From the NCBI RefSeq assembly GCF_039525035.1, contig NZ_BAAAHE010000014.1, positions 137,885 to 201,884 of the forward strand: DNA of 64,000 nt, written 5' to 3'. The notes beneath the pieces were generated by a model that saw only the letters and a list, made by a program, of their open reading frames with translations, searched no databases and was not told the DNA's origin. Shown here in pieces: positions 45,170 through 64,000 of this stretch. The translations under genes were made by a program, and so were the position numbers. Origin of the DNA: Sporichthya brevicatena. Lineage in GTDB: Bacteria; Actinomycetota; Actinomycetes; Sporichthyales; Sporichthyaceae. Every line of letters starts with the position of its first letter. Position 1 is the stretch's first letter.

Positions 45170-45170
45170 G

Positions 45171-47387: not shown

Positions 47388-47456
47388 ATTTTGTTGAGTG
47401 GAACGGGCACCGGTGCTCCGAGGCTGAACCGGGCCCTTCGGGGGTAGGGCCTGGGC

Positions 47457-48092
47457 ATGACGACGGCGCGGGGCGCGACCCCGGAGCAGGCCATCCCCGA
47501 GCGCGCGCTCAGCGACCGCCTCGATGCGTGGCTGGGTGACGACGAGCCGAAGACGCTCGGCGGGCTGCTCAAGCACTTCGGGCAGCAGGCGTTCGCGGTC
47601 GCGTTCGTGCTGCTGATGATGCCCTCGGCGCTGCCGATCCCGACGGCGGGCATCACGCACGTCCTCGAAGCCGCGACGCTGCTGCTCGCGTTGCAGCTGG
47701 TCGTGGGCCGCGACGAGCCGTGGCTCCCGCGGCGGGTGCGGGACAAGGAGCTGAAGTCGCTGCAGTCGGAGAAGGCGCGGCGCCGGCTGGTCACTCCGCT
47801 GGAGAAGGTGGAGAAGATCGCCCGGCCGCGCTTCGCCCGCACGGTGCAGAGCAACGCGGGGCGGATCGTGTTCGGCCTGATCGTCGTGCTCTTCGTGATC
47901 GGCGCGATCGTCGCGCCCCCGTTCAGCGGCCTCGACACCCTGCCGTCGGCCGGCATCGTGCTGGTCAGCCTCGGGGTGCTGTTCGGCGACGCGATTCTCG
48001 TCGGCGTCGGCGTGCTGGCCGGGGTCGGCGGGATGGCGCTGATCGTCGCCCTCGCCGGGACCGTCGCCTCCGCGATGGGCAGCATGTTCTGA
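47457..48092 (+). CDS. exoD: ExoD-family membrane protein
   Basis: 211 residues. GGLLKHFGQQAFAVAFVLLMMPSALPIPTAGITHVLEAATLLLALQLVVGRDEPWLP is characteristic of ExoD proteins (exopolysaccharide synthesis regulators), followed by FGLIVVLFVIGAIVAPPFSGLDTLPSAGIVLVSLGVLFGDAILVGVGVLAG. Four membrane helices are visible. The biochemical role of ExoD is not settled. Monocistronic, divergent from the acyl-CoA dehydrogenase. Confidence 0.85.
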   Translation: MTTARGATPEQAIPERALSDRLDAWLGDDEPKTLGGLLKHFGQQAFAVAFVLLMMPSALPIPTAGITHVLEAATLLLALQLVVGRDEPWLPRRVRDKELKSLQSEKARRRLVTPLEKVEKIARPRFARTVQSNAGRIVFGLIVVLFVIGAIVAPPFSGLDTLPSAGIVLVSLGVLFGDAILVGVGVLAGVGGMALIVALAGTVASAMGSMF

Positions 48093-48149
48093 GACCGGCC
48101 CTTCCGTCGCGTCACCTAATGCATTTAGATGTCGCCGCGGAGGTGCGGT

Positions 48150-49010
48150 GTGAAGATCGGTGTCATGTTCGGGCTCGCGTACGGCGCGGGCCGGCCCGAG
48201 TTCCTCGATCACCTGGCGGTCGCCGTCGAGGAGCGGGGGATCGAGTCGGTGTGGGTCGCCGAGCACGTGGTGCTCTTCGACTCCTACGACAGTCGCTACC
48301 CCTACAGCCCGGACGGCCGGGCCCCCGTGCCGGCGGACGCCGGGTTGCTGGAGCCCTTCGTCGCGCTGAGCTACCTCGCCGCGCGGACGACGACGGTCCG
48401 CCTCGGCACCGGCATCTGCATCGTCGGGCAGCGCAACCCGGTCTACACGGCCAAGCAGGTGGCGGACCTCGACGTCCTCTCCCGCGGCCGCGTCGACTTC
48501 GGCGTCGGGGTGGGCTGGCTGCGGGAGGAGTACGAGGCGCTGAACGTGCCGTGGGCGAATCGGGGTCTGCGCACCGACGACCACCTCGCGGTGATGCGGG
48601 CGCTGTGGACCGACGAGGTCGCGTCGTACTCCGGGCGCTACTACGAGCTGCCGCCGAGCCGGCTGTACCCGAAGCCGGTGCAGACGCCGCACCCGCCGAT
48701 CCACGTGGGCGGCGGCAGTGACGCCGCCCTGCGCCGGGCCGCCCGGTTCGGTCAGGGGTACAACGGCATGAACATCACCCCGGAGGACCTGCCCGGCGTG
48801 CTGACCCGGCTCGACGTCGAGCTGGAGAAGGAGGGCCGTTCGCGCGACGGCTTCCAGATCTCCATCGCCCCCGCGTTCGGCAGCTTCGGCCCCGGCCTCG
48901 CCGACCGCTACCGCGACCTCGGGGTCGACCGGCTCATCGTCCCCCTCGCCGCCTTCGGGCCCGAGGACCTCGACCGCGCCCTCGACGCCCTCACCGCCGC
49001 CGGCGTCTGA
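48150..49010 (+). CDS. LLM-class F420-dependent oxidoreductase
   Basis: 286 residues: KIGVMFGLAYGAGRPEFLDHLAVAVEERGIESVWVAEHVVLF, RVDFGVGVGWLREEYEALNVPWANRG, and PPIHVGGGSDAALRRAARFGQGYNG, all landmarks of the TIGR03619-type F420 enzymes. GTG 48150 lies six bases after GGAGG. Upstream CTAATGCATTTAG (48116-48128) is nearly palindromic and may be an operator. Substrate unknown. Confidence 0.88.
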   Translation: MKIGVMFGLAYGAGRPEFLDHLAVAVEERGIESVWVAEHVVLFDSYDSRYPYSPDGRAPVPADAGLLEPFVALSYLAARTTTVRLGTGICIVGQRNPVYTAKQVADLDVLSRGRVDFGVGVGWLREEYEALNVPWANRGLRTDDHLAVMRALWTDEVASYSGRYYELPPSRLYPKPVQTPHPPIHVGGGSDAALRRAARFGQGYNGMNITPEDLPGVLTRLDVELEKEGRSRDGFQISIAPAFGSFGPGLADRYRDLGVDRLIVPLAAFGPEDLDRALDALTAAGV

Positions 49011-49104
49011 CGCGCTGATCCGTCCGGCCCCACCCCCACTGGTTCGAAGGGGACGGCCAGGAAACGGGGCGTTAGCCGGAATCGGGGGCGGGCACGTCCT
49101 CGGT

Positions 49105-51441
49105 ATGGACGCACGGATCGCGGAACCCTGGGGCGCACGGACTCCCTACGGGCCGGGGGAGACCTGGCCGGAGCGGGTCGACAGCTACCTCGCCGACGGG
49201 GTGAGTGAGGCTGACGTCGAGCGGTGGGTGCCGACGGCGAGCATCCTGCACTCCAACGGGGACGCGCTGGACGTCGCGGTGGCCGGGGGCCGGATCGTCG
49301 GGGTGCGCGGCCGCGCGCACGACCGCGTCAACCACGGCCGGCTCGGGCCGAAGGACCTCTACGGCTGGCAGGCGAACAACTCGACCGACCGGTTGACGCG
49401 TCCGCTGATCCGGCGCAACGGGCACCTGGTCGAGACCGACTGGGACACCGCGATGGACGCGATCGTCCGCCGGACCCGCGAGTTGCTCGACGAGCACGGG
49501 CCGTCCGCGATCGGCTTCTACACGTCGGGCCAGCTGTTCCTGGAGGAGTACTACACGCTGGGCGTCCTCGCGCACGGCGGGCTGCGCACCAACCACGTCG
49601 ACGGCAACACCCGGTTGTGCACCGCGACCTCCGCCGAGGCGCTGAAGCAGAGCTTCGGGTGCGACGGCCAGCCCGGCTCGTACGCCGACGTCGACCACGC
49701 CGACGTGATCGCGCTCTTCGGCCACAACATGGCGGCCACGCAGACCGTGCTGTGGTCGCGAATCCTCGACCGCCTCGCCGGACCGAACCCGCCGCAGGTC
49801 ATCTGCGTCGACCCGCGCCGGACGCCGGTGGCCGAGCACGCCACCGTGCATCTCGCGCCGCTGCCCGGGACGAACCTCGCCCTGATGAATGCGCTGCTGC
49901 ACGAGGTGATCGTGAACGGGTGGACGGACGAGGACTACATCGCCGCCCACACCGTCGGCTACGACGAACTCGCGAAGCAGGTGAAGCCGTGCACGCCCGA
50001 GTGGGCCGCGGAGATCTGCCGCGTGCCGGCGGCGGACATCCGCGCGGCCGCTCGGGTGGTGGGGTCCGCGCAGCGACTGCTGTCGACGGTCCTGCAGGGC
50101 TTCTACCAGTCGCACCAGGCGACCGCCGCGGCCGTGCAGGTCAACAACCTCAACCTCCTGCGCGGGATGCTGGGCAAGCCGGGCTGCGGGATCCTGCAGA
50201 TGAACGGCCAGCCCACCGCGGAGAACACCCGCGAGTGCGGCGCGGACGGCGACCTGGCGGGTTTCCGCAACTGGTCCTCCGACGCGCAGGTCGCGGACCT
50301 GGCGCGTGTGTGGGGCCTCGACATGCACGACATTCCGCACTACAGCCCGCCGACCCACGTGATGCAGCAGCTGCGCTACATCGAGGAGGGGTCGATCCGC
50401 ATGTGGTGGGTCTCGGCGACCAACCCGGCGGTGTCGCTGCCGGAGCTCGCGCGGATCCGGTCGATCCTCGCGCAGGAACGTCTGTTCCTGGTCGTCCAGG
50501 ACATCTTCCCGACCGAGACCACCGAGCTCGCCGACGTCGTCCTCCCGGCCGCCACGTGGGCCGAGAAGGAGGGCACGTTCACCAACGCCGACCGCACCGT
50601 GCACTACTCGGGTCGGGCGGTCGACCCCCCGGGTGACGCTCGGTCAGATCTCGACATCTTCCTCGACTACGCCCGGCGCCTCGACCTCCGCAACCGGTCC
50701 GGGGAGCCGCTGATCCACTGGACCGACCCCGCGAGTGCGTTCGCGGCCTGGCAGGAGTGCAGCCGCGGCCGCCCCTGCGACTACACCGGGTTGAGCTACG
50801 CGATGCTGCGTGAGCGCGGCGGCGTCCAGTGGCCGTGCACCGCCGAGAACCCCGACGGGACCGAACGGCTGTACGTGGACGGGAAGTTCTTCGCGGCCGC
50901 GGACTACTGCGAGACCTACGGCCGCGATCTGCTCACCGGCGCCCCGATGGAGCCGGCGGAGTACCGAGCCTTCAACCCGGACGGCAAGGCGATGTTCAAG
51001 GGCGCCGAGTACACGCCGCCGCCGGAGACCCCGAGCGACGATCACCCGTTCGTCCTGACAACCGGGCGGACGCTCTACCACTTCCACACCCGGACCAAGA
51101 CGGCCCGCGCCCCGCAGCTCGACGCCGCCGCGCCGGAGGTGTGGGTGGAGGTGTCGGCCCCGGACGCCGAGCGGCTCGGTGTCGAGGAGGGCGACCTGCT
51201 CGAGATCCGTTCCCCGCGCGGGAGTGTGCGCGCCCCGGCGCGGATCGGCGGGATCCGTGAGGGCGTGGTGTTCCTGCCGTTTCACTACGGCTACTGGGAC
51301 ACCAAGACCGAGGACGACGGCCACGAGCGCGCCGCCAACGAACTGACGATCACGTCCTGGGACCCGGCGTCGCGCCAGCCGTTGTTCAAGACCGCCGCGG
51401 TGTCGGTGCGGAACCTGACGAAGGACGGTGGGCAGCGATGA
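49105..51441 (+). CDS. Molybdopterin oxidoreductase lacking the N-terminal Fe-S cysteines
   Basis: 778 residues of the nitrate reductase/formate dehydrogenase family: GRLGPKDLYGWQANNSTDRLTRPLIRRNG, the probable Mo ligand in GNTRLCTATS (Cys172), ADVVLPAATWAEKEGTFTNADRTVHYSGRAVDPPGDARSD and the C-terminal FVLTTGRTLYHFHT...DLLEIRSPRGSVRA domain. The region that normally holds CxxCxxxC reads SILHSNGD, and no cysteine occurs before residue 172. An Fe-S cluster cannot form, so electron transfer must differ. The next gene is coupled by ATGA overlap. The physiological substrate is unknown. Confidence 0.9.
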   Translation: MDARIAEPWGARTPYGPGETWPERVDSYLADGVSEADVERWVPTASILHSNGDALDVAVAGGRIVGVRGRAHDRVNHGRLGPKDLYGWQANNSTDRLTRPLIRRNGHLVETDWDTAMDAIVRRTRELLDEHGPSAIGFYTSGQLFLEEYYTLGVLAHGGLRTNHVDGNTRLCTATSAEALKQSFGCDGQPGSYADVDHADVIALFGHNMAATQTVLWSRILDRLAGPNPPQVICVDPRRTPVAEHATVHLAPLPGTNLALMNALLHEVIVNGWTDEDYIAAHTVGYDELAKQVKPCTPEWAAEICRVPAADIRAAARVVGSAQRLLSTVLQGFYQSHQATAAAVQVNNLNLLRGMLGKPGCGILQMNGQPTAENTRECGADGDLAGFRNWSSDAQVADLARVWGLDMHDIPHYSPPTHVMQQLRYIEEGSIRMWWVSATNPAVSLPELARIRSILAQERLFLVVQDIFPTETTELADVVLPAATWAEKEGTFTNADRTVHYSGRAVDPPGDARSDLDIFLDYARRLDLRNRSGEPLIHWTDPASAFAAWQECSRGRPCDYTGLSYAMLRERGGVQWPCTAENPDGTERLYVDGKFFAAADYCETYGRDLLTGAPMEPAEYRAFNPDGKAMFKGAEYTPPPETPSDDHPFVLTTGRTLYHFHTRTKTARAPQLDAAAPEVWVEVSAPDAERLGVEEGDLLEIRSPRGSVRAPARIGGIREGVVFLPFHYGYWDTKTEDDGHERAANELTITSWDPASRQPLFKTAAVSVRNLTKDGGQR

Positions 51442-51920
51442 AGCTCGGCCTGGCCCTGCGGGAACTGCACCGCTCCGAGACCGAACTCGCCCAACGGCTG
51501 CTGCACGCCGGCGAGCGACACGAGGCGGACCAGGACGTCTACCACCTGTCCCGCACCCTCGCGGCCTGGTCGACCGAGCACGTCCGCGCGATCGCGGAGC
51601 AGGCCCGCCGTTACGACGAGGACCTCGACCCCGAGCCGCGGTTGGAGACGCGTCTGGTCGAACGTCTCCGGGAGCGCGCGGCCGAGGTCCTCGGCCGCGA
51701 GCCCGAGGCCGGGATGCTCCTGCTGCTCGACCTGCGGGAGATCTACCTGGCGGCCGCCGGTGTCTCGGTCGACTGGGAGCTGATCGCCCAGGGGGCGCAG
51801 GGTGTCCAGGACCTCCCGCTGATCGAGTTGGCCCAGCGCGCGCACACCGAGAACCTCCGTCAGATGCGCTGGGCGAACGCGAAGCTCAAGGAGTCCGCGA
51901 CCCAGGTTCTGCTCACCTGA
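51438..51920 (+). CDS. All-helical protein coupled to the Mo oxidoreductase
   Basis: 160 residues, predicted almost wholly helical: ALRELHRSETELAQRLLHAGERHEADQDVYHLSRTLAAWSTEHVRAIAEQA and later LLLLDLREIYLAAAGVSVDWELIAQGAQGVQ. Repeated His and Glu positions (RHEADQDVYHL, EHVRAIAE) suggest a ferritin-like four-helix bundle, but no complete metal site can be proved. ATGA overlap with the oxidoreductase gene implies joint function. Confidence 0.72.
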   Translation: MKLGLALRELHRSETELAQRLLHAGERHEADQDVYHLSRTLAAWSTEHVRAIAEQARRYDEDLDPEPRLETRLVERLRERAAEVLGREPEAGMLLLLDLREIYLAAAGVSVDWELIAQGAQGVQDLPLIELAQRAHTENLRQMRWANAKLKESATQVLLT

Positions 51921-51930
51921 CGCCCGTGTC

Positions 51931-51980
51931 AATAAAGGGTGACACCCCTTACTGCGCAGTAAGGGGTGTCACCCTTTTTT
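51931..51980. terminator. Long hairpin, repeat family copy 3
   Basis: Two 25-base arms with one mismatch and no loop; right side ends in a run of six T. Core GGGTGACACCCCTTACT as in copies 1 and 2. The stop codon of the convergent minus-strand gene lies inside the left arm. Confidence 0.82.
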
Positions 51981-52407
51981 CACGGGGGAGCGGGATCACC
52001 GGGGCGATCCGGGGCTCACCGCCGCACCGGCCGCCGCGGGCGCGCCAGCCGTAGAGCCAGTGCTTGACGAGGAAGCTCTCGTCCTCGTCGTCGGAGTCGG
52101 CGGGGTAGGGGCACGCCTCGGGGGACTGGCCGGCCTCGGCCGCGCAGGCCCCGCGGCCGACCGCGGTCAGGACCGCCTCGTGGTCCTCCCACCCGCGGAC
52201 CCATGCCTGGGCGAGGGCGCGGGCGTCGGGCTCCTCGGGGTCGAGAAACGCCCAGGGGTCGCACGGCTGCCGCCGGTGCCGGGCCAGCGCTCCGCGCCGC
52301 CGCTGCTGGGCGCACGCGTAGATCAGCACCAGCGCCGCTCGCCGCTCCTCGGCGTCGAGCACCTCGACCGGGTCGGGCGACCCGACCAGCCGTAGGACTT
52401 GCCCCAT
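51949..52407 (-). CDS. Hypothetical protein reading into the hairpin
   Basis: 152 residues from ATG 52407; an alternative ATG at 52440 is possible. GQVLRLVGSPDPVEVLDAEERRAALVLIYACAQQRRRG is followed by an acidic middle (DPEEPDARALAQAWVRGWEDHEAVL) and CAAEAGQSPEACPYPADSDDEDESF. No family recognised; four cysteines are scattered. The final residues KRVTPLT and the stop are encoded by the terminator stem, as if the hairpin inserted into, and set, the end of the gene. Confidence 0.55.
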   Translation of the reverse strand: MGQVLRLVGSPDPVEVLDAEERRAALVLIYACAQQRRRGALARHRRQPCDPWAFLDPEEPDARALAQAWVRGWEDHEAVLTAVGRGACAAEAGQSPEACPYPADSDDEDESFLVKHWLYGWRARGGRCGGEPRIAPVIPLPREKRVTPLTAQ

Positions 52408-52801
52408 CGCTGCCCTCTTCCGGTCTCGCCTGTTGCGCATGTTGCTCAGGAGCCGATGACTCGTTGTTCACTGTGTAGCGCTCCGGACCGACAGAACCGA
52501 GCGGACCCGCCGTACGCAGGCAGAATCGACGCCGGTGGAACCGACCCGGGCGCCCGCCGAACGCTGATTAGGCACCCTGTGCAAGATCTTGGACAAGCCC
52601 TCTAGACAACCTGTGCAAGTTTCGTCACCATGGGACCTGCGCCACCCCCGGCGCCCCCCCGACAACCGGTGAACTTCCCGGGCTGCGGCCCGACCCGCCC
52701 CCGAATCGCCCCTCGACGGGCAGCAACCTGCACGCCGACCCGGCCGACCCGTGCCGGCCGGCTGCGGTGCGCCGACCCGTCAGGACGGAGAGGAACTGCA
52801 G
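52408..52801. other. 394-bp region without a convincing gene
   Basis: Upstream of transport locus III. It holds the 41-bp conserved regulatory site at 52578-52618 and, further on, a C-rich stretch with no coding signal. The minus-strand hypothetical gene may start within its first 33 bases. Confidence 0.6.
52578..52618. promoter_or_regulatory. 41-bp conserved regulatory site with KstR2-like core (copy 1)
   Basis: TGTGCAA boxes at both ends, CAAGATCTTG (52582-52591) close to the left end, and CTCTAGA on the right. The same arrangement, same length, occurs at 61555-61595 in the opposite orientation. CAAG-N2-CTTG is the core of the TetR-type KstR2 box of steroid ring degradation. Two TetR genes lie at 60198 and 60836. 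Confidence 0.65.
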
Positions 52802-53137
52802 ATGGATCTCGGACAGTGGCTCCGGCTCAGCTGGGACCGAGCCGGTGCGTGGGTCTGCGTGGTGGCCGGCGCGATCGCGCTGGTGCTGGGCTGGATCGGG
52901 GTCAGCAACAAGCTCTACACCGCCGAGCAGATCCCGTACGTCATCTCGGCCGGGTTCGGGGGACTGTTCCTGCTCGGTCTGGGCGGGATCCTCTGGCTGT
53001 CCGCCGACCTGCGTGACGAGTGGACGCAGCTGGACAAGCTGGAGGAGCTGCTCGCCCTCCAGGCCGAGGAGGACGCCGCCGCCCAGGCCGCTCCGACCGT
53101 CGTGACGCCGAACTCCCTGGTGGGGTCGGCTCAGTGA
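52802..53137 (+). CDS. Small two-helix membrane protein, transporter accessory (locus III)
   Basis: 111 residues from ATG 52802 after GGAGAGG. Two helices (AWVCVVAGAIALVLGWIGV and YVISAGFGGLFLLGLGGILWL) and a charged tail LSADLRDEWTQLDKLEELLAL, then an Ala/Val-rich end. Homologous to the 91-residue protein at 25127 (LRLSWDRA, PYVIS, WLSADLRDEW). First gene of locus III; its stop overlaps the start of the HRADCPL protein. No known function. Confidence 0.82.
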   Translation: MDLGQWLRLSWDRAGAWVCVVAGAIALVLGWIGVSNKLYTAEQIPYVISAGFGGLFLLGLGGILWLSADLRDEWTQLDKLEELLALQAEEDAAAQAAPTVVTPNSLVGSAQ

Positions 53138-53643
53138 CGACCCGTCAGCGACGTCGCCCCCCGGTGGCCGCGACGCTGTGGACCCCGGCCGACCTCGCGG
53201 TCACGTCGATCCTGGTCGGCGTCGGCGCCCTGCTGTGGTTCGTCGGCTGGTACAGCGCGTCGGACAAGCTCGTCGAGGGTGACCAGATTGCCGCCCTGAA
53301 CCTCTCCGCCGCCGGCACGCTGCTGGCCGGCGCGGGACTGGTGTCCTGGTTCCTCAACGGGCGTCGCTCGATCTGCACCCGCCGTCGCCGCCTCGTCGAG
53401 CGCCGGCGGGCTCAGCTGCGCCCGGCCACGGTGGCGCGCGCGGCCGCGCTTCCCGAGACCGCGGCGACCGCGAAGGAGAGCCTGGCCCCCCGCGCGTCCT
53501 CGCCCGTGCTGGTGGCGGGTGAGTCGCTGCGCCGGTTCCACCGCGCGGACTGCCCGCTCGCGACCGGGCGGAACTGGCCGGCGGCCGAACGCTCGGCGCA
53601 CGAGGCCGCGGGCCGCGCGGCGTGCGGAGCGTGCCGCCCATGA
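53134..53643 (+). CDS. Membrane protein with C-terminal HxxxC...CxxC motif (locus III)
   Basis: 169 residues. Two hydrophobic helices (LAVTSILVGVGALLWFVGWY and AAGTLLAGAGLVSWFL), a basic linker with ICTRRRRLVERRRAQLRP, and the tail FHRADCPL (His136, Cys140) and CGAC (Cys164, Cys167). The motif is shared with 25399, where HRADCPL is identical, making a conserved metal site likely. GTG and ATG overlaps couple it to both neighbours. Role in transport is inferred from position only. Confidence 0.8.
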   Translation: MTTRQRRRPPVAATLWTPADLAVTSILVGVGALLWFVGWYSASDKLVEGDQIAALNLSAAGTLLAGAGLVSWFLNGRRSICTRRRRLVERRRAQLRPATVARAAALPETAATAKESLAPRASSPVLVAGESLRRFHRADCPLATGRNWPAAERSAHEAAGRAACGACRP

Positions 53644-55688
53644 GCACCGTTCTCACCCGCGCGGGCGACGCCGCGCGCACGAACCTCAAGGGCCGTCCGC
53701 AGCAGATCGGCCTGACCGTGGTCCTGCTGCTGGTCGGCGGGCTCCTGGCGTCGGCGAACGACTTGTGGCCGTTCGTCATCAACGGCATCTCGGACGGCTC
53801 GATCTACGCTCTCGCGGCGCTCGGCCTGGTTCTGACCTTCAAGACCTCCGGCATCTTCAACCTCGCCATCGGTGGCCAGGCGGCCGCGTCGGCGTACGTG
53901 TTCTACAGCTTCCGGATCGACGCCGGGATGCCGTGGCCGGTGGCGGCGCTGCTGGCGCTGCTGATCGTCGGCATCGGCGGTTCGCTGATCCTGGAGCGGA
54001 TGGCCTACCTGCTGGCCGAGGCGCCCCCGGTCATGAAGATCGTGGCGACGATCGGTCTGCTGGTCTTCCTGCAGTCGGTCCTCACCGGCGCCTACGGCCC
54101 GGCGACCCTGCAGTTCTCGCAGTACCTGCCGACGGACAGCTTCGCGATCGGCGAGGTGCGCGTGCAGGCGAGCCAGGTCATCGTCACGGTCTTCGCTCTC
54201 GCCTCCACGGCCGGTCTGTACCTGTACTTCAAGCGCGCCCGCCTCGGTGTCGCGATGCAGGCCGTGGTCGAGGACCCGAACCTGCTCGCGCTGGAGGCGA
54301 CCAGCCCGGTCGTGGTCCGCCGCTACGCGTGGGCGATCGGCTCGTCGTTCGTCTCGATCTCGGGCATGTTGATCGCTCCGGGCCTGGGCATCCAGGTCAA
54401 CCAGATGCTGCTGCTCTACGTGACGGCGTTCGGCGCCGCGGCGCTCGGCGGGTTCTCCAGCCTGCCGCTGACGTTCGCGTCCGCGATCGGCATCGGCATC
54501 ACGATGAACATCCTGTCCGACAAGCTCGCCGGCCAGACCGACGTCGTGCTCTCGCAGCTCTACACGCAGGTGCCGTTCCTGGTCCTGGTCGCGGCGCTGC
54601 TGTTCGTGCCCAGGCGCAAGCTGATCGAGCGCGGTGCGAAGCGGGCCCGGCGGGCGACGCCGATCCGCCAGTTCCCGCCGCAGGTCATGCTCCCGGCCGG
54701 CGCGCTCGGGCTGTCGGCCGCGGTGATGGTCCCGTTCGTCGTCGACTCCGCCGACATCAACCAGTACACGACCGCGATCGGGTTCGCGATCGTGCTCGCC
54801 TCGCTGGGTCTGCTGATCTGGACCTCGGGCCAGCTCTCGCTGTGTCACATGGCGTTCGCCGCCGTCGGGGCCACGACCTTCTACCACGCGCAGAACGCCG
54901 GGTGGCCGTGGCTGCTCGCGCTGCTCGCGGGTGCGTTGGTCGCGATCCCGGTCGGTGCGCTGGTCTCGATCCCGTCGTTCCGTCTGTCGGGCACGTACCT
55001 GGCGGTGGCCACGTTCGGGTTCGGGCTGCTGTTCCAGAACCTGATCTACGCCACCGACTTCATGTTCGGCGCCGCCGACATCCGCTCGGTCTCCCGTCCG
55101 GAGCTGTTCGGCATGGACACCGCGAGCGACCGCGGCTACTACTACACGGCGCTGGTCATCGCGCTGGGGTGCGTCGCCATGATTCTGACGGTCCGTCGCA
55201 GCCGCCTCGGTCGTCTGCTCCGCGGCCTCGGCGACTCGCCGGCGGCCCTGGCGGCGCACGCGACCAACACGCGCCTGACGTGCCTGATGGTCTTCAGCCT
55301 CTCGGCGTTCCTGGCCGCGGTGGGTGGCGTCCTGATCGCGGGCGTCCCGCAGTCCGCCTCCGGCAACGCGGGTGGCTCGTTCGGGTACTTCAACTCCCTC
55401 GTGCTGGTGGCGGTCCTGACCTTCTGCGGCCGCCGGCCGATCCTGTCGCCGGTGATCGCGGCGGTGCTGTTCGTCGTCATCCGGATCTACGAGCCGTTCA
55501 ACAGCGAGACCTTCGTCGACTACCAGGGCGCGATCTTCGGTGCGCTCGCCCTCGGCGTGGCGATCGCCCCGGCGCTGCGGGTGCCGACGCTCGGCCGACG
55601 CGGCATCGCCCGCGTCGGGCGGCGCACCCCGACGGCCGTCCGGGTCCAGCGAGTTCAGGGCCGTGTGCGTGAGGGGGTGGCGGCATGA
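53640..55688 (+). CDS. Fused LivH-LivM ABC transporter permease (locus III)
   Basis: 682 residues. After an N-terminal arm, LivH begins ([35 protein letters not shown]) and LivM occupies the second half ([54 protein letters not shown]). Paralogue of 25881. ATG overlaps the preceding stop and the LivG start overlaps its stop, so a complete importer (permease, LivG, LivF, binding protein) is encoded in one operon here. Confidence 0.93.
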
Positions 55689-56509
55689 CGCGCGAGCTCC
55701 CGTCGCTGGAGATCGACGGCGTCACGGTCCGCTTCGGCGGTCTGGTCGCGGTCTCGGAGGTGACGCTGACGGCGCCGGCCGGGCAGATCACCGGCCTCAT
55801 CGGCCCGAACGGGGCCGGCAAGACCACGACGTTCAACGCCTGCACCGGGGTCGTCCCGGCGGCGAGCGGTTCCGTGCGGCTGGGCCGGACGGTCCTGGAC
55901 GGGCACGGCACCTCCAAGCGCGCGGCGCGTGGCCTGGGCCGCACGTTCCAGCGCATGGAGCTCTTCGACTCGATGACGGTCGTGGAGAACGTCGAGCTCG
56001 GCGTCGAGTCCTTCCTCGCCGCCGGCCGCCCCTTCGGGCAGATGTTCTGCCCGCCGGGGGAGCGCAGGAAGATCGCCGCGCGGGCCGCGGACGCCCTGGA
56101 ACTCTGCGGGATCACGGGCCTGGCCCGGCGCACCGCGGGGGACCTGTCGACCGGTCAGCGCCGGCTCGTCGAGCTCGCCCGCGCGATCGCGACCCCGTTC
56201 TCGTTCCTGCTCCTCGACGAGCCGTCCTCCGGTCTGGACCCCGAGGAGACCGAGAAGTTCGGGCAGATCCTGCTCGACTTCGTCGCCGACCGGGGCGTCG
56301 GGATCCTGCTCGTCGAGCACGACATGGCGCTGGTGTCCTCGATCTGCAGCTACATCTACGTCCTGGACTTCGGGCGGCTGATCCATCAGGGCCCGACGGC
56401 CGAGGCGCTCGCGTCTCCGATCGTCCTCGAGGCCTACCTCGGCACCGAGTCGAGTGCGCTGGACTCCGCAGCCGAATCGATCGACGGAGCGGAGGCAGCG
56501 CATGCTTGA
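55685..56509 (+). CDS. livG: LivG-type ABC transporter ATP-binding protein
   Basis: 274 residues. Walker [16 protein letters not shown] near residue 40, LivG-type [18 protein letters not shown], signature [16 protein letters not shown], Walker [15 protein letters not shown] and the switch in [13 protein letters not shown]. It pairs with LivF to energise import. Starts ATGA-overlapped with the permease and overlaps livF by eight bases. Confidence 0.93.
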
Positions 56510-57197
56510 GCTACGGGGCATCACCGCCGGCTACGACACCGGCACGGTGCTGCGCAACGTCGACCTGATCGTTCCGGACTCCTCGGTCGTGGCGCTGATC
56601 GGCCCGAACGGTGCGGGCAAGACCACCCTGCTGCGCGTCGCGTCCGGTCTGCTCAAGCCGACGGGGGGTCAGATCATCCTCGACGGCGTCGACGTCACCG
56701 GCCGCCCGACCGAGGACCTCGCCCGGCGGGGTATCTGTCACGTCCCCGAGGGGCGGGGCGTCTTCCCGGGTCTGTCGGTCGCGGACAACGTGCGCCTGCA
56801 GGCACCGCCGCAGGTCGACAAGCGTGCGATGGCCCGCGCGGCCGAGGCGTTCCCGCGCCTGGGGGAGCGCGCCACGCAGCTCGCCGGCACCATGAGCGGT
56901 GGTGAGCAGCAGATGCTCGCCCTCGCCCACACCTACGTCAGCGACCCCTCGATCGTGCTCCTGGACGAGGTGTCGATGGGGCTGGCGCCGAAGATCGTCT
57001 CGGAGATCTTCGAGTTCCTGGAGGGCCTCGCCCGGTCCGGGAAGTCCCTGCTGCTCGTCGAGCAGTACGTCGCGCGGGCACTGGAGTTCGCCGACTACGT
57101 CTACATCCTCAACCGCGGCCGCATCACCTTCGCCGGCGAACCCGGCGAACTCAGCGAGAGCGCCGTCGCCGAGTCCTACCTGGGAGCGAGTCGATGA
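56502..57197 (+). CDS. livF: LivF-type ABC transporter ATP-binding protein
   Basis: 231 residues from ATG 56502 after GGAGG. Walker [34 protein letters not shown], signature MSGGEQQMLALAHT, Walker B IVLLDEVSMGLAP. Close to the LivF at 27781, sharing LLLVEQYVARAL, with the same YLGAS/YVGAS ending. The stop overlaps the start of the secreted protein gene. Confidence 0.93.
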   Translation: MLELRGITAGYDTGTVLRNVDLIVPDSSVVALIGPNGAGKTTLLRVASGLLKPTGGQIILDGVDVTGRPTEDLARRGICHVPEGRGVFPGLSVADNVRLQAPPQVDKRAMARAAEAFPRLGERATQLAGTMSGGEQQMLALAHTYVSDPSIVLLDEVSMGLAPKIVSEIFEFLEGLARSGKSLLLVEQYVARALEFADYVYILNRGRITFAGEPGELSESAVAESYLGASR

Positions 57198-58543
57198 CCC
57201 ACCGCGCCGCAAAGCCGACCTCGAGCACCCGGCTGAGCCGGGCCACCGGCCGCCGCGTCGCCGCCGGTGCCGGGGCGATCGCCCTGCTCGCCGTGAGCGG
57301 CCTGGTGCTGGGCGGCTCGGCCCAGGCCGACGCCCCCACCGACTACGAGCTGCTCGCCGGCGCGAGCTCGCTCGACATCCACATCGCCGACAACAACCTG
57401 CCGGTGACCCAGGTCGTCGATGCGAGCCCCTACGGCGCCTCGGCGACCCTGTCGAGCTCCGGTGTCGTCAAGGCCGACGCCGGTGCCCCCTACGCGCCGT
57501 TCGGCTACTCGCTGCCCTCCACCGTGACCGGCCTCGGTGCGGGCAACCTGCCCGCGATCCCGCCGTTCCCCGGCTACGTCGCGGCCAGCTACCCGGCCAA
57601 CGCGATCGACGAGCAGAAGACCGGCGGCTACGAGCTCTCGGCCCGCACGGCGGAGCGCTCCTCGGTCGGCAGCGTCCGACTCGGTCAGATCGGCTCGGAC
57701 AGCTCGACCGGGTTCGCCATCGCCCGCGCCACCGCCAACGACGACGGCACCGTCACCACCGAGGGTGCCGCGGGTGCCTCGGCGTTCAGCTTCGGTGGGG
57801 TGCTCGACCTCGGCCGGGTGTCCTCGGTCCTGTCGATGACCAAGTCGCCGAACGGCAAGCCCGTCATCACCGGCACCACCGACCTCGGCACCGTCACCGT
57901 CGCCAGCAACTTCCCCTCCGGCATCCGGGACGACGGGTCGCTGGTCGCCGGTGCGCCCGTCCCGCTCACGCCGTCCTCGATCACCGCACTCAACGCCGCG
58001 CTCGAGCCGCAGGGCCTGGCCCTGACCTACCTGCCGCGCACGTTCACCTACACCGACGGCACCACCAGCACCGGCGCCCAGCCCGACGCGCGCAAGACGA
58101 TCCGCACGGTTTCCTCCGGTGCCTTGCAGGTGAGGTCGAGCCAGAACGTTCCCACCCAGGGCAAGGTCGACGTCGTCTACACCTTCGGCCGGGTCACCCT
58201 CTCCGCCACCAACGGCGGGTCCGTGACCACCGGCGCGGACGTCGTCGACTCCACCGTCGGGGGCATCTCACCCGAGCTGTCCGGAGCGATCGATGCCGCC
58301 GCCGGCCAGCTCCCGGGCGCACTCCCGCCCGACGCCGCCGCTCTGCCGGAGACGGCCACCGGCCAGCTTCCGGGTGCCGTGCCCACCGTCGAACTCGCGC
58401 CCGCGGCCTCGCCGCAGACCGGTGTCGTCGCCCTCGCCGGGCGCGCGGCCTCCTACGGCGAGAGCCCGTACCTGATGCTCGTCGTCGCGGCGCTCGGCGC
58501 CCTCGGCGCGGCGCACCTGGTCCGTTTCCTCGCCGTCAAGTAA
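57194..58543 (+). CDS. Secreted, C-terminally anchored protein of transport locus III
   Basis: 449 residues. A signal peptide (AAGAGAIALLAVSGLVLGGSAQA-DAP) leads a Ser/Thr/Gly-rich ectodomain with predicted beta strands (SSLDIHIADNNLPVTQVVDASPYGASATLSSS). Near the end is a Pro/Ala linker with a repeated GQLPGA motif (three times), then one membrane helix PYLMLVVAALGALGAAHLV and a short basic tail. Same plan as 23718. Encoded between livF and the binding lipoprotein, so it is an integral part of the operon. Function unknown. Confidence 0.78.
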   Translation: MTHRAAKPTSSTRLSRATGRRVAAGAGAIALLAVSGLVLGGSAQADAPTDYELLAGASSLDIHIADNNLPVTQVVDASPYGASATLSSSGVVKADAGAPYAPFGYSLPSTVTGLGAGNLPAIPPFPGYVAASYPANAIDEQKTGGYELSARTAERSSVGSVRLGQIGSDSSTGFAIARATANDDGTVTTEGAAGASAFSFGGVLDLGRVSSVLSMTKSPNGKPVITGTTDLGTVTVASNFPSGIRDDGSLVAGAPVPLTPSSITALNAALEPQGLALTYLPRTFTYTDGTTSTGAQPDARKTIRTVSSGALQVRSSQNVPTQGKVDVVYTFGRVTLSATNGGSVTTGADVVDSTVGGISPELSGAIDAAAGQLPGALPPDAAALPETATGQLPGAVPTVELAPAASPQTGVVALAGRAASYGESPYLMLVVAALGALGAAHLVRFLAVK

Positions 58544-58597
58544 GCCCCCGTTCTCGAACCGTCGAGCCGCCGTCCGGCCCCGAGAGGAACCACCCGA

Positions 58598-60130
58598 ATG
58601 AAGTTCAGGCGATCCGCCTCATCGCGCGTCCCGGGACGCCGCCAGTTGACCGTCGGTCTGCTGGTCGGCGCCCTGACGGCGACCCTCGCCCTGTCCGGAT
58701 GCGGCTCCCGGCGTGACAGCCAGGAGTTCGTCGCGGCGAACTCCGCCGGCGTGGTCGCGGCCCCCGACGGCAGCACCGGGTTCGACACGGGCGCCGCGCC
58801 CGGTGCCGACACCGGCGCCGGAATCGGGGCCGTCGACCCCGGCGCGGTGGCAGGTCCGGACACCACGGCTCCCGGTCAGAGCGCCGGCGGCGCGGCCACC
58901 GCGGCGCCGGGCAAGGCGACCACCGCGGGCGGCGCCTCGACCGGCACCGCGGCGCAGCCCGGCAAGGCGGCCGCGGGCAGCGGCAACAAGTGCGCCACCT
59001 CGGGTTCGGTCGTGACGCTCGGGAACATCAGCACCCAGTCCGGTCTGCTCGGTGAGCTCTTCAAGGGCCTGCCGGAGGCGCTGCAGGTCTGGGCGAAGTC
59101 GGCCAACGCCTGTGGCGGCTTCGGTGGCCACCCGGTGCGCGTGGTCTCCGCCGACGACGGTGGCGACCCGGCGACGGCGCTGACCATCGCCCAGCGCATG
59201 GTCCAGAACGACAAGGTGCTGGCCTTCATCGGCCTGGACATGCCGCTGTCCGTCGCCGGCATCGAGAAGTACCTCAAGGAGGTCGGCGTCCCGTCGATCG
59301 GTGGCGACTCCTCCGAGCTGCCGTTCTTCGAGAACCCGATGTTCTTCCCGATCGGCCCCTTCGTCAGCGTCATCGGCGCGGCGGACGCGGAGATCGCCAT
59401 CAGCAAGGGCGCGAAGAAGATCGCGGTCTTCTACTGCACCGAGATCCCGAACTCCTGCGGCCCGGTCGCGGCGAGCAAGGACCTGCAGGTCGGGTCGCCG
59501 GTCGTCAAGGCGATGGGCGGCGAGATCGTCCTGTCGCAGAAGGCGTCCGTCGTCGCGCCGAGCTACACCTCGCAGTGCATCGCGGCCAAGCGCGCCGGGG
59601 CCGAGGCGATCATCGCCATCCTCGACGGCCCCAGTGTCGGCCGCCTGGCGACGAACTGCCACGCGCAGGACTACAAGCCGATCTTCCTCGGCATCAGCCT
59701 CGGTCTGAGCGCGAACCTCACCGACTACGCGGCCCTGAACCAGAACAACTTCTTCGCGCCGCTGAACACCTTCCCGTGGGTGGACGCCTCGCTGCCCGGT
59801 CCCAAGAAGTACGCCGAGGACCTGCAGAAGTACTTCGGCCGTCCGCTCGGCGGTCCGAGCCCGGCGATGGCCTACGCCTCGGGTGTCCTGGCGGCGCACG
59901 CGGTCCGGGCCGGCCTGCCGGCCAACCCGACCTCGGCCGACGTCATCAAGGGTCTCTACACCATCAAGAACGAGACCCTCGGTGGTCTGGTCGCCCCGCT
60001 GACGTTCACCCCGAAGCTCCCGCGGGACGGCATCACGTCCTGCTACTTCCTGGTCGCGATCTCTCAGGGCAAGTTCGTCGCGCCCGAAGGCTCCAAGTGC
60101 CTGAAGGTCAACGCCAAGGGGCCCCAGTAA
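58598..60130 (+). CDS. LIV-type substrate-binding lipoprotein (locus III)
   Basis: 510 residues. Lipobox TLALSGC sets the acylated cysteine at residue 35. A Gly/Ala/Thr/Pro-rich linker extends to about 130, followed by a type I binding domain (VVTLGNISTQSGLLGELFKGLPEALQVWAKSANACGGFGGHPVRVVSADDGGD...). Cysteine pairs suggest disulfides in the outer domain. RBS GAGAGGAACC. Last gene of the transport operon before a hairpin. Ligand unknown. Confidence 0.9.
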   Translation: MKFRRSASSRVPGRRQLTVGLLVGALTATLALSGCGSRRDSQEFVAANSAGVVAAPDGSTGFDTGAAPGADTGAGIGAVDPGAVAGPDTTAPGQSAGGAATAAPGKATTAGGASTGTAAQPGKAAAGSGNKCATSGSVVTLGNISTQSGLLGELFKGLPEALQVWAKSANACGGFGGHPVRVVSADDGGDPATALTIAQRMVQNDKVLAFIGLDMPLSVAGIEKYLKEVGVPSIGGDSSELPFFENPMFFPIGPFVSVIGAADAEIAISKGAKKIAVFYCTEIPNSCGPVAASKDLQVGSPVVKAMGGEIVLSQKASVVAPSYTSQCIAAKRAGAEAIIAILDGPSVGRLATNCHAQDYKPIFLGISLGLSANLTDYAALNQNNFFAPLNTFPWVDASLPGPKKYAEDLQKYFGRPLGGPSPAMAYASGVLAAHAVRAGLPANPTSADVIKGLYTIKNETLGGLVAPLTFTPKLPRDGITSCYFLVAISQGKFVAPEGSKCLKVNAKGPQ

Positions 60131-60137
60131 AGCCGTC

Positions 60138-60165
60138 CGCCCGGGCGCGGCGACGCGCCCGGGCG
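60138..60165 (+). terminator. GC-rich hairpin after the locus III binding protein
   Basis: Perfect 12-base arms (60138-60149, 60154-60165) around a four-base loop, seven bases after the stop codon. No T tract follows, as is common in high-GC actinobacteria. Confidence 0.65.
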
Positions 60166-60197
60166 ACGGCGTCGCGCGGCTAGGCTGGCGGGTAGCC

Positions 60198-60839
60198 ATG
60201 TCCTCACCCACGACGCCGACCGGTACCAGCCGGCGAGCCCAGCCCCTCGATCGCCGGCACATCGAACGCCGTGAGCTGATCTCGCGCTGGTTGCTCCCGG
60301 CTGTCGAGCGCCTGCTCGAGCAGGAGACCTACGGCGCGCTGACGGTGGAGCAGATGGCGGCCGAGGCCGAGATCTCCCGGTCGACGTTCTACAACTACTT
60401 CGAGGACAAGGGCGACCTGCTCCGCGCGCTCGTCGGTGACGTCATGGGCGCCTCGCTCGACGCCAGCCGGGTGTGGTGGATGCTCCCGCCGGAGGCCGAC
60501 AAGGAGGAACTCCGCGTCGCCCTCCGGCATCTGGTCGAGGTGTACCGGCCGCACGCCCTGCTGATGCGCGCGGTCTCCGAGTCGGTCTCGCACGACGCAC
60601 GGGTCCGCGACGAGTACCTCGACTACATGGCGAACGGTGTCGCCGGCATCGCCGGCTACGTCCGCAGCGGCCAGCGGGCCGGCGTGATCCGCGCCGACCT
60701 GGATCCCGACGCCGTCGGGCAGTGGCTCACCTGGGGCTTCGAACGCGGGCTCATGCAGCTGAGCCTGCGGCCCGAGGACCAGGACCCCGAGCGCGTCGTC
60801 ACCGCGATGACGGACATCGTCTGGAAGGCGCTGCATTGA
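60198..60839 (+). CDS. TetR-family regulator (first of a pair)
   Basis: 213 residues with HTH TVEQMAAEAEISRSTFYNYFEDKGDLLRALVGDVM near residue 50. The ligand-binding half is helical. Overlapped by the next TetR gene. With the KstR2-like sites at 52578 and 61555 it is a candidate regulator of locus III and the downstream operon. Confidence 0.9.
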   Translation: MSSPTTPTGTSRRAQPLDRRHIERRELISRWLLPAVERLLEQETYGALTVEQMAAEAEISRSTFYNYFEDKGDLLRALVGDVMGASLDASRVWWMLPPEADKEELRVALRHLVEVYRPHALLMRAVSESVSHDARVRDEYLDYMANGVAGIAGYVRSGQRAGVIRADLDPDAVGQWLTWGFERGLMQLSLRPEDQDPERVVTAMTDIVWKALH

Positions 60840-61501
60840 GCGCCCCGAGGACGAAGCGGAGCCGGAAGAAGGCCGAGGCCGAGGACCGCCGCCGGAGCAT
60901 CCGCGACCGCCTGCTGGCGGCCATCGAGGAGCTCGCGGCCGCGGGGGAGTCGTACTCCACCGTCTCGGTGGAGCGACTGGCCTCGACCGCCGGACTGTCG
61001 CGGGCGACCTTCTACATCTACTTCGACGGCAAGGCCGGCCTGCTCGAGGCGTGGTTCGCCGAGGTGGAGGAGGAGCTGGCGAAGGCCACCGCCGCCTGGT
61101 TCGCACTCGACGGGGCCGCCACCCAGGACGACCTCGGCCGCGCGCTGCGCGGCATCGCCGAGGTCTACGTCGAGCACCGCCGGTTGCTGGCGGCGTTCAA
61201 CGACGAGGCGTCGCAGAACACCGAGGTCCGCGACCGCCTCGACCAGGCGATCGCCCGCGTCACCGACGAACTGCGTGTGCACATCGAGCACGGGCAGAAG
61301 GAGGGTTGGGTCGACCCCGACCTGGTCGCGGCGGAGACCGCCGCCTGGACCGTGGCGATGCTTGAGCGAGGTCTCGGCAACGTGGTGGCCGAGGCCGACG
61401 AGGACGCGGTCGACCGACTGCTCGCCACCTTCACCTCGATGCTGTGGCACACCCTCTACGTCGGTTCTCCGCAGCGCCCGATCGCCGCTCCGCGCGGCTG
61501 A
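60836..61501 (+). CDS. TetR-family regulator (second of a pair)
   Basis: 221 residues from a TTG start that overlaps the previous TGA; no nearer ATG or GTG with a ribosome site fits. The HTH is VSVERLASTAGLSRATFYIYFDGKAGLLEAWFAEVEEE. A basic N-terminus RTKRSRKKAEAEDRRRS precedes it. The pair could act as a heterodimer or bind the two different 41-bp sites. Followed by a small GCTGATTCGCCG triplet repeat at 61498-61530. Confidence 0.87.
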   Translation: MSAPRTKRSRKKAEAEDRRRSIRDRLLAAIEELAAAGESYSTVSVERLASTAGLSRATFYIYFDGKAGLLEAWFAEVEEELAKATAAWFALDGAATQDDLGRALRGIAEVYVEHRRLLAAFNDEASQNTEVRDRLDQAIARVTDELRVHIEHGQKEGWVDPDLVAAETAAWTVAMLERGLGNVVAEADEDAVDRLLATFTSMLWHTLYVGSPQRPIAAPRG

Positions 61502-61554
61502 TTCGCCGGCTGATTCGCCGGCTGATTCGAGCCCTGGCGACATTCGCCCGGTCC

Positions 61555-61595
61555 TTGCACAACGTCTCTAGACAGAGCGTCCAAGATGTTGCACA
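61555..61595. promoter_or_regulatory. 41-bp conserved regulatory site (copy 2) with nested inverted repeat
   Basis: Reverse complement aligns base for base in length with 52578-52618: TGTGCAA at both ends, CATCTTGGAC, and TCTAGA. A perfect nine-base inverted repeat TAGACAGAG/CTCTGTCTA (61569-61577 and 61596-61604) is nested over its right part. Sixty bases upstream of the 61655 gene. Confidence 0.65.
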
Positions 61596-61654
61596 CTCTG
61601 TCTAATGCGTGATTGAGCGCACGCCCCCCGCCCCGATCGACTCAAGGACGCCGC

Positions 61655-62725
61655 ATGGGTTGGACCGACCGGATCGACGTTGCCGACGAGCACTGGCACA
61701 AGCGAAGTGACGACCCGTACTGGAGCGAGAACACGCTCTTCGGGTTCACAGTGCCGGAGCGGAATCTGTGCGGGTTCATCTATTGGTACTGGCGTCCGAA
61801 CATGAACCTGGTCGTGGCCGGCCCGGCGGTGTGGGACCACACCGGTGAGGACGTCTACAACTGCCTGTACTACGGGTGGGACCAGCACCTGGCGATCCCG
61901 CCGGGCTCGGACATGTACGACTTCACGCTGTCGAACTCGTTGTCGTGCCAGATGGTGACGCCGCAGCAGGAGTACCACATCACCTACGACAGGAACGGCT
62001 TCACGTTCGACCTGACGTGGACCGCGATGGCCGAGCCGCATTACATGAAGCTGACCAAGAGCGGCGAGGAGGACCCGGGCATCAAGAACTGGGTCGCCAA
62101 GGAGGGTGACTTCTCGGTCGGGCACTACGAGCACGCCGGCTGGTTCCGGGGCTGGATCGAGCTCGAGGGTGAGCGGATCGAGATCGACTGCGGCGCCCTG
62201 CGCGACCGCGGTTGGGGTCCGCGGCACGCGGACGTGAAGGACCCGCTGCGCGCGGGCTGGCCGTACGTCTTCGCCTCGCCGGAGAGCGGCTGGCACCTGT
62301 ACGACCCGCAGACGACGCTGGCGTTCGAGGACGACCCGATCGAGGGCACGACCGAGACCGTGACGACCGGGTTCTACATCCGCGACGGGGTCAAGGCCCA
62401 GATCGTGGGGGGCACCCGCCGCGCGGAGCGGGGCCGCGACGGTCGGGTGCTGCGTCAGGTGATCGACGCCGTCGACGAGCTCGGCCGTGAGCTGCACGCC
62501 GAGGGCCAGACGATGAACTGGCTCAAGTGGCCGATCAACAGCGACATCATCAACTGGTGGTCCCTGGTCCGCTGGGAGTACGACGGCCAGGTCGTGTACG
62601 GCGAGGACCAGGACTTCATGAACTTCCGCCACTACCGGCGGTACTGGCGGCGGCTGCTGGCGAAGGACCCCGGGTTGCTGCACTGCTTCCCGGACTCGCC
62701 CGACTACCCGCCGTACGGAAAGTAG
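61655..62725 (+). CDS. DUF7064/DUF7065-like lipocalin-type protein
   Basis: 356 residues. The motif DCGALRDRGWGPRHAD and aromatic-rich strands (FIYWYWRPNMNLVVAG, NCLYYGWDQHL) match the AttH/CrtC-related proteins of unknown function often found in steroid- and terpenoid-degrading actinomycetes. ATG 61655 follows AAGGA. It starts an operon with a phosphotransferase and a probable P450. It may bind or hydrate a polycyclic substrate; activity is unproved. Confidence 0.78.
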   Translation: MGWTDRIDVADEHWHKRSDDPYWSENTLFGFTVPERNLCGFIYWYWRPNMNLVVAGPAVWDHTGEDVYNCLYYGWDQHLAIPPGSDMYDFTLSNSLSCQMVTPQQEYHITYDRNGFTFDLTWTAMAEPHYMKLTKSGEEDPGIKNWVAKEGDFSVGHYEHAGWFRGWIELEGERIEIDCGALRDRGWGPRHADVKDPLRAGWPYVFASPESGWHLYDPQTTLAFEDDPIEGTTETVTTGFYIRDGVKAQIVGGTRRAERGRDGRVLRQVIDAVDELGRELHAEGQTMNWLKWPINSDIINWWSLVRWEYDGQVVYGEDQDFMNFRHYRRYWRRLLAKDPGLLHCFPDSPDYPPYGK

Positions 62726-62734
62726 GCCGCCGTC

Positions 62735-63826
62735 ATGACGATCGTGAACTCCGTCGAGGAGATGACCGCCGACTGGTTCACCGCCGCCCTGGCCGACGTG
62801 CTCGGCGACGCGAGGGTGACCGCGGTGTCCACCGAGCAGCTCGGTGGTGGCGCCTTCGCGCGAATGATCCGCGCGTCCCTGAGCTACGACGGCGAGACCA
62901 CCGCTCCCGCCTCCGTGATCGTGAAGATCCCCTCCACCGACCCGGGCAGTTTCGGGATGGCGAAGGCGATGGGGATGTACGACCTGGAGGTCAGCTTCTA
63001 CCGGGACGTCGCGCCGCTGGTGCCCGGGATGAGCATCCCCACCTGCTACCTGGGCGAGTCTGACCCCACCTCAGGTCTGTTCACCCTGGTGATGGCCGAC
63101 CTCACCGGTGTGGCCGCCCCGATCCCGAACGTCGGCGCCGGGTCGACGGTCGAGGAGATGCTGGAGGCCTGCCGGGCCGCGATCACCGAGCTGGTGGCCT
63201 TCCAGGCGCCGCTGTGGAACTCCCCGCAGGTGGAGAAACTGGCCTGGCTGGCCGACCCCGCCCGCGCGATCGGGATGTTCGAGGCGATGGGCCAGGGCCT
63301 GGAGCCCTTCGTCGCCCGGTTCGGGGACAGCCTGGACGCCGAGCACATCGAGTTCTTCCGCGCCAACCTGCCCCGCGCGGGGGAGTGGGTGCGCAGCTGG
63401 GGCCGCCCGACCGTCGTGCAGCACGGCGACTTCCGCAGCGACAACCTCATGCGCGGCACCGCCCCCGGCGCGCCGGCGATCACGGTCATCGACTTCCAGA
63501 CCGTCCGCCTCGGTCCGCCCGGGATCGACCTGGCCTACCTGATCGGTTCGTCCCTGCCGACCGAGGACCGCCGTGTGCAGGAAAAGGCCCTCGTCGCCGA
63601 CTACCACGCCCAGCTCGTCGGTGCCGGTGTCGAGGACTTCGACGCCGACGCCTGCTGGAACGCCTACCGCGAGGGTGCGCTCTACGGCGCGTTCCTGTTC
63701 GTCGGCCTGGCCGCCCAGGTCGTCTCCACCCCGGAGATCGACGCCTACATCGCCGCCCAGGCCAAGCGATACGCCGACATGGCGATCGACCTCGACTCCG
63801 CCGCGCTCCTGAAGGGTTCGTCATGA
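62735..63826 (+). CDS. APH/EcKinase-like phosphotransferase
   Basis: 363 residues. The catalytic loop is VVQHGDFRSDNLM and the metal site is VIDFQTVRLGPPGIDLAYLIG, as in aminoglycoside phosphotransferase and ecdysteroid-kinase-like proteins. The conserved lysine is in SVIVKIPS. It likely phosphorylates a hydroxyl on a small molecule with ATP. Located between a DUF7064-like protein and a P450, substrate probably a steroid or terpenoid alcohol, which is inferred. Overlaps the next start by ATGA. Confidence 0.88.
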   Translation: MTIVNSVEEMTADWFTAALADVLGDARVTAVSTEQLGGGAFARMIRASLSYDGETTAPASVIVKIPSTDPGSFGMAKAMGMYDLEVSFYRDVAPLVPGMSIPTCYLGESDPTSGLFTLVMADLTGVAAPIPNVGAGSTVEEMLEACRAAITELVAFQAPLWNSPQVEKLAWLADPARAIGMFEAMGQGLEPFVARFGDSLDAEHIEFFRANLPRAGEWVRSWGRPTVVQHGDFRSDNLMRGTAPGAPAITVIDFQTVRLGPPGIDLAYLIGSSLPTEDRRVQEKALVADYHAQLVGAGVEDFDADACWNAYREGALYGAFLFVGLAAQVVSTPEIDAYIAAQAKRYADMAIDLDSAALLKGSS

Positions 63827-64000
63827 CCGACACCACCACCGAAGCTCCGACCGGCTGCCCGGCGGGCGCCGGCGCGCGGCAGCCGAGCATGCTCGAGGTG
63901 CTCGCCGGCACCTGGGACACCTGCGCGCTGTTCGGGCAGCTCCGTGAGGCCGCACCGATCATGTACGTGGCCGAGATGGACGCGTGGATCCTGACCCGCT
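63823..64000 (+). CDS. Probable cytochrome P450, 5-prime part only
   Basis: The first 59 residues are present and the gene runs off the window. The segment LAGTWDTCALFGQLREAAPIMYVAEMDAWILTR matches the P450 start (substrate access strand and VAxMDAWILTR). ATG overlaps the preceding stop. Identification needs the haem loop, which lies outside the window. Confidence 0.5.
   Translation, partial: MTDTTTEAPTGCPAGAGARQPSMLEVLAGTWDTCALFGQLREAAPIMYVAEMDAWILTR

Follow-up and report, generated by a model that had tools for sequence, protein, structure and literature searches.

In a 64,000-nucleotide stretch of the Sporichthya brevicatena genome (contig NZ_BAAAHE010000014.1, positions 137,885 to 201,884 of the forward strand; here called the window), two closely similar intergenic sites in opposite orientation flank a gene cluster that encodes a Liv-type importer and closes with two adjacent TetR genes, and this arrangement raises the question of which protein reads the sites. 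An earlier note on this DNA had described them as a 41-bp paired regulatory element with a KstR2-like core. From the sequence evidence given below, we consider it rather probable that the two sites serve as operators for a single small regulon under the tandem TetR genes, here called TetR1 and TetR2, and that they are read by a TetR1:TetR2 heterodimer.

The paired sites, placed by the earlier note at 52578-52618 and 61555-61595, are indeed present in opposite orientation with TGTGCAA at both ends of the 41-bp unit. This extent is exact at both sites but too short, as the likeness continues for 10 bp left of the unit, which had been missed, and the real likeness is 52 bp. The full sites, 52568-52619 on the forward strand (site 1) and 61554-61605 on the reverse strand (site 2), are identical at 38 of 52 positions; site 1 is a candidate three-dyad operator upstream of the transporter operon, and site 2 is the same element on the other strand, 49 bp ahead of the ATG of a DUF7064 gene. 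For a joint 42-bp pattern, TGTGCAASATCTTGGACN6TCTAGAN5TGTGCAAG, exact matches lie at 52578-52619 (+) and 61554-61595 (-), with 0 expected by chance when up to 3 mismatches were allowed, as estimated from 100 dinucleotide shuffles. The genome-wide motif search that had been proposed as a check showed that, at the same tolerance, the pattern occurs at these two places only in the 5,225,509 bases of the genome, that is, twice in 5.23 Mb. Of 393 genomes of the class searched, one carries the pattern, and it is this one.

The right-hand 30-bp core of the pattern has three exact matches in the genome, namely both sites and positions 29752-29781 of another contig (C30). The third copy, TGGACATTGTCTCTAGACATCGTGTGCAAG, contains two dyads and lies 13 bp ahead of the ATG of an AveC-like gene (PF17198, 132 bits), which fits the pathway downstream of site 2 because a gene of this type also closes the site-2 operon. 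Allowing up to 3 mismatches gave 8 core matches in the genome and 1 for a reversed-pattern control; the five further matches comprise the same three places on the opposite strand, one before the gene of an unpaired TetR homologue (C5) and one at C1:6707 that looks like a chance match. The 30-bp pattern was widened after the congener G003 had been viewed, so that its count in G003 is not independent while the C30 match is.

Each site is composed of three asymmetric 18-bp dyads in alternating orientation, B-N3-A', A-N3-B' and B-N3-A', where B is YTAGACA (TGTCTAG on the other strand) and A' is TGTGCAAG. In site 1, which reads TTAGGCA-CCC-TGTGCAAG AT CTTGGACA-AGC-CCTCTAGACA-ACC-TGTGCAAG, the dyads occupy 52568-52585, 52588-52605 and 52602-52619; site 2 reads TTAGACA-GAG-TGTGCAAC AT CTTGGACG-CTC-TGTCTAGAGA-CGT-TGTGCAAG. 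All dyads are built on ACA-N3-TGT, dyads 2 and 3 share a central CTAG, and the dyad centres, counted from the site letters, are spaced 21 and 13 bp. Every dyad of the window sites joins one B with one A, and none is B-N3-B' or A-N3-A'. When positions 44001-64000 of the window were searched for repeated ACA-N3-TGT dyads, with the flanking letters not supplied, the operator dyads ranked first; the search returned 4 pairs at a distance of at most 2 (one of them unrelated) versus 0 in each of 5 shuffles. A symmetric 32-bp template, which gave 22 for the window sites versus a shuffle maximum of 20, barely separated them and was not relied on.

The two open reading frames (ORFs) adjoining site 2 proved to be real TetR genes, as the earlier note had read them. 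TetR1 (60198-60839, forward strand) and TetR2 (60836-61501, forward strand) score 38.9 and 37.1 bits against PF00440, both above its curated cut-off of 24, and their recognition helices read ISRSTFYNYF and LSRATFYIYF, respectively. TetR2 starts at a TTG that overlaps the TetR1 stop codon (CATTGA), with the same letters in the window and in both TetR pairs of G003, and in all three pairs a stop separates the two ORFs, indicating that they are not one polypeptide. Structure models (mean predicted local distance difference test scores of 93.6 for TetR1 and 92.3 for TetR2) have TetR chains as their top matches, and EthR chains fill ranks 1-25 for TetR1 and 1-24 for TetR2; TetR2 and EthR superpose with a Z of about 18 and a root-mean-square deviation of about 3 over about 188 residues. 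The EthR_C domain stayed below its curated cut-off of 27 (20.6 and 20.1 bits), and NCBIfam gave no family above cut-off for either protein. A profile of the pair searched against PDB had its best match in EthR (6e-12), with Mce3R (9b7y) at 6e-7 over a single stretch. A search for named relatives of TetR1 returned 80 loci, mostly helix-turn-helix matches, none of which was used, and the present case is classed only as an EthR-fold TetR pair. In a tree of 34 rows, TetR1 and TetR2 each group with their two G003 counterparts, with values of 100/100 for the TetR1 clade and 100/98 for the TetR2 clade, and the inner order is the same in both; these parallel clades and the kept overlap make it likely that TetR1 and TetR2 were inherited as a pair. 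For a possible descent of the first and second genes of all pairs from a single ancient pair, the same tree needed 2 changes per label, at weak forks.

The cluster is syntenic in G003. A consensus derived from the window sites alone, run against 71,102 bases of G003, matched at L102:8487 (+), 17328 (-), 17404 (-) and 6872 (+) with 6, 13, 13 and 14 mismatches, respectively, while the lowest mismatch per shuffle ranged from 14 to 18 (100 Markov shuffles). The match at 6872 is thus within the null of this test, though its first dyad is that of 8487 outside the N3. The matches at 17328 and 17404 precede the small membrane gene that opens the G003 transporter operon, 8487 lies between TetR2 and a binding-protein gene, and 6872 lies before the DUF7064 gene. 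The congener thus has the sites at corresponding places, while their sequence has diverged. The earlier proposal that the transporter genes ("locus III") and the DUF7064 operon form one regulon is probably right, given the shared operator, the matching sites in the congener and the third copy before another gene.

To assign the half-sites to the proteins, we compared helices and upstream sequences at 30 mycobacterial loci taken as best matches (L112-L141), scoring the palindrome CTAGACA-N3-TGTCTAG at 12 or more of its 14 letters. The helix SRA[ST]FY[IV]YF occurs at 22 of the 30 loci and the palindrome lies upstream in all 22, compared with one of the 8 remaining loci (L141, whose helix is unreadable by the helix pattern). 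The TetR2 helix, SRATFYIYF, is that of L140, which has a perfect palindrome. The mycobacterial TetR lineage that carries this helix and palindrome (L117, L119, L121-L140) could not be matched to a named regulator. For the other half-site, the second, paralogous TetR pair of G003 is informative: its TetR1 helix is SRSTFYKYF, an N to K change from the SRSTFYNYF of TetR1, its TetR2 helix core is still SRATFYIYF, and the dyads before its operon, CTAGACA-AGG-TGTTTGCG and CTAGACA-GTG-TGTGCGCG, leave B unchanged and change A from TGTGCAAG to TGTTTGCG or TGTGCGCG. This pair, within L103:771-9590, is accompanied by its own binding-protein and kinase homologues, and its two operator dyads lie at 9718 and 9806. 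Because of the correlation of helix and palindrome and of the joint change in the second G003 pair, we prefer to place TetR2 on B, TetR1 on A and one heterodimer on each predicted dyad.

In the mechanism that we propose, B (TGTCTAG) would be contacted by one TetR2 subunit and A (TGTGCAAG/TGTCCAAG) by one TetR1 subunit, which would place a TetR1:TetR2 heterodimer on every dyad. Repression would come from two or three such heterodimers bound next to each other, in the manner of EthR, which forms multimers on its 55-bp operator. The repressors would be released by a ligand, for which the compound taken up by the Liv-type importer and a product of the P450/AveC pathway are possible candidates. As the last genes of the site-1 operon, the TetR genes should be subject to the same repression. 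The more specific proposal, that the heterodimer is obligate and forms a two-gene counterpart of fused double-TetR repressors, with an own half-site for each subunit, an alternating array tiled by heterodimers and a helix code in which SRA[ST]FYIYF specifies TGTCTAG, seems to us about evenly balanced. If true, this would be a TetR heterodimer occurring in nature, with a half-site code that can be read, and an intermediate between homodimers of a single gene, on palindromes, and fused double repressors like Mce3R, on asymmetric sites; with a Liv-type importer and a P450/AveC pathway controlled by one switch, there would also be a handle for finding the substrate. Most likely, one regulon links the operons for transport and oxidation and a distant third gene. 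Our literature search found no report of this system.

Several observations weigh against the heterodimer. The 22 mycobacterial homologues amount to one lineage's worth of evidence, the six of them included in the tree forming one clade, and the change in A and the TetR1 helix, which follows the prediction, is a single event. No clear repeated asymmetric dyads were found at the other tandem pairs searched in mycobacterial loci L142, L143, L145 and L146, and the tandem pair of L106 (G001) has near-symmetric dyads and no clear asymmetric ones. An orthologous pair was found in only 2 of 197 genomes of the class, both of this genus. Moreover, the unpaired C5 homologue has before its gene an asymmetric composite of similar grammar in the absence of a partner gene, and therefore asymmetry alone is no proof of a heterodimer. 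The last point also favours a serious rival, to which we give well under an even chance: the operators and the regulon would be the same, with TetR1 and TetR2 forming a homodimer each, the two sharing the array or competing for it and each accepting one imperfect half-site. There is precedent for it in the adjacent SAV576 and SAV577, which share sites and compete and, in the part of the report available, do not heterodimerise (PMC4051647). Against separate homodimers stand the pairing of one B with one A in each window dyad and the way in which B and A track the helices of different proteins. It is improbable that a TetR from elsewhere, e.g. the C5 homologue, reads the sites and that the adjacent pair has another target. 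The layout does recur in the promoter of that homologue (L107), with TGTCCAAAATCTCGGAC-N6-TCCAGACA, and cross-talk is possible, but in both species the TetR pair has the sites on either side of it, and in G004 and G001/G002, where relatives of the C5 gene occur and the pair is absent, nothing close to the 42-bp site was found. The C5 homologue itself (L107:10294-11045) belongs to a group of unpaired EthR-like TetR proteins conserved in the family (also L109, L104, L105 and L106) with the helix GVARSTFYVYF; operator-like GGACA-N3-YGTCCAGACA-N3 stretches occur in the loci of this type that we inspected, and cross-talk with the window sites is possible.

Two further explanations are very unlikely. 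One is that a KstR2 orthologue reads a CAAG-AT-CTTG core, as the earlier note had suggested. KstR2 is also a TetR repressor, the CAAG-N2-CTTG is common to its motif and site 1, which contains CAAGATCTTG, and the available text of the KstR2 study gives the motif as AnCAAGnnCTTGnT (PMC3068626). At its outer positions, however, where that motif has A and T, site 1 carries T and A instead; site 2 shows CAAC-AT-CTTG in its core, the box is missing from the third copy, and there are 0 exact AnCAAGnnCTTGnT motifs in the genome. Judged by the motif, with no search made for a KstR2 gene, the KstR2 link is not borne out; site 1 has CAAG-AT-CTTG because two A half-sites join back to back there. The other explanation is a small repeat or mobile element with TGTGCAA ends, at both ends of the 41-bp unit, that landed by chance in two intergenic regions. 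Such an element is hard to reconcile with 2 full copies and 3 copies of the core in 5.23 Mb, each a short way upstream of a gene, with presence in one of 393 genomes of the class, and with sites that are kept in place and diverged in sequence in the congener, and we rejected it.

The genes around the sites, all on the forward strand, belong to two operons. The site-1 operon opens with a small membrane protein (52802-53137; orthologue at L102:16799-17137) and a second one (53134-53643; orthologue at L102:16308-16802) with no Pfam match, followed by a fused LivHM-type ATP-binding cassette (ABC) permease (53640-55688; PF02653, 136 bits), a LivG-type ABC ATPase (55685-56509; PF00005), a LivF-type ABC ATPase (56502-57197; PF00005; start taken from the G003 orthologue), a 449-amino-acid protein without Pfam or NCBIfam match (57194-58543), a LivK-type binding protein (58598-60130; PF13458, 150 bits) and the TetR pair. 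Between 52802 and 61501 no gap between genes exceeds 67 bp, and therefore the TetR genes probably share a transcript with the importer genes and are autorepressed. Past the downstream end of the site-2 operon, at L177:18988-19799, two more small membrane genes look by eye like the two at the start of the site-1 operon and are perhaps part of a paralogous importer cluster. The site-2 operon opens with a DUF7064/DUF7065-type gene (61655-62725; PF23213, 27.6 bits, cut-off 27) and an EcKL/APH-type kinase gene (62735-63826; PF02958) and extends past the window with genes for a P450, a PEP-utiliser domain, a DUF7065 protein, an unknown protein, a luciferase-like monooxygenase, a second unknown protein and an AveC-like protein. 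Judging by the P450, AveC-like and DUF7064/7065 genes, the importer may take up a hydrophobic compound. Other repeats were seen in these regions. The nearly identical palindrome TGACACCCCTTACTGCGCAGTAAGGGGTGTCA occurs at 51935-51985 and, with an altered centre, at about 40775-40806 of the window, at L178:16303 and just below 10294 of L107; in places it is followed by a T run, as in a dispersed terminator-like repeat. Another operator-like stretch, with several dyads and a perfect GGACACCGTGTCC palindrome (L177:10971-11022 and L180:10705-10756), is alike in both congeners and in this genome lies just past the AveC-like gene; its reader is probably a different EthR-like TetR.

Among known systems, EthR of Mycobacterium tuberculosis is alike as the best fold match of both proteins and the best PDB profile match, and in having a long operator of several repeats. 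In the available part of the review, its operator is 55 bp and bound as an octamer (PMC9210681), and in its repeat TCAACGWNATGTCGA, taken on the opposite strand, the ACA-N3 spacing is the one found here. EthR differs, as far as these excerpts go, in being one gene, divergent from ethA, whose homo-octamer recognises TGTCGA; here there are two genes at the end of a transporter operon, and instead of a repeated TGTCGA the half-sites are TGTGCAAG and TGTCTAG. QacR, CgmR and RolR, in the same source, also have operators that take up a pair of dimers, on dyads of about 29-36 bp that overlap or lie next to each other; they are described there as homodimers on symmetric repeats, in contrast to the asymmetric dyads, three of them, found here. 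SAV577 and SAV576 of Streptomyces avermitilis are likewise adjacent and similar TetR genes acting on the same sites, but the accessible text of that study has them competing as homodimers on a 15-bp palindrome, with no heterodimer (PMC4051647). An excerpted survey of mycobacterial TetR proteins describes the Mce3R and EthR motifs as larger, multi-copy and not classical palindromes (PMC4482099). Candidate double-TetR ORFs of about 450 amino acids in mycobacterial loci L154-L156 were not used as Mce3R, since the best PDB match of the one tested, L154, is EthR and Mce3R is absent among the 23 matches listed; the ORF at L154:8958-10307, 408-450 amino acids long, has a first half that matches EthR and lies upstream of genes resembling by eye a yrbE/mce operon. 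Mce3R itself, a double TetR with a non-palindromic operator in the portion of the paper available (PMC11667970), was compared by its description there and not by operator letters; it resembles the system proposed here in two non-identical TetR units on a non-palindromic site, several sites per promoter and lipid-type genes, and differs in being a single polypeptide rather than two genes and in its weaker profile match (9b7y). As to a non-palindromic site that two different helix-turn-helix motifs would read, as in Mce3R-type repressors, the analysis showed asymmetric dyads and differing recognition helices of TetR1 and TetR2, and we favour the view that the putative TetR1:TetR2 heterodimer is a split analogue of the double-TetR Mce3R.

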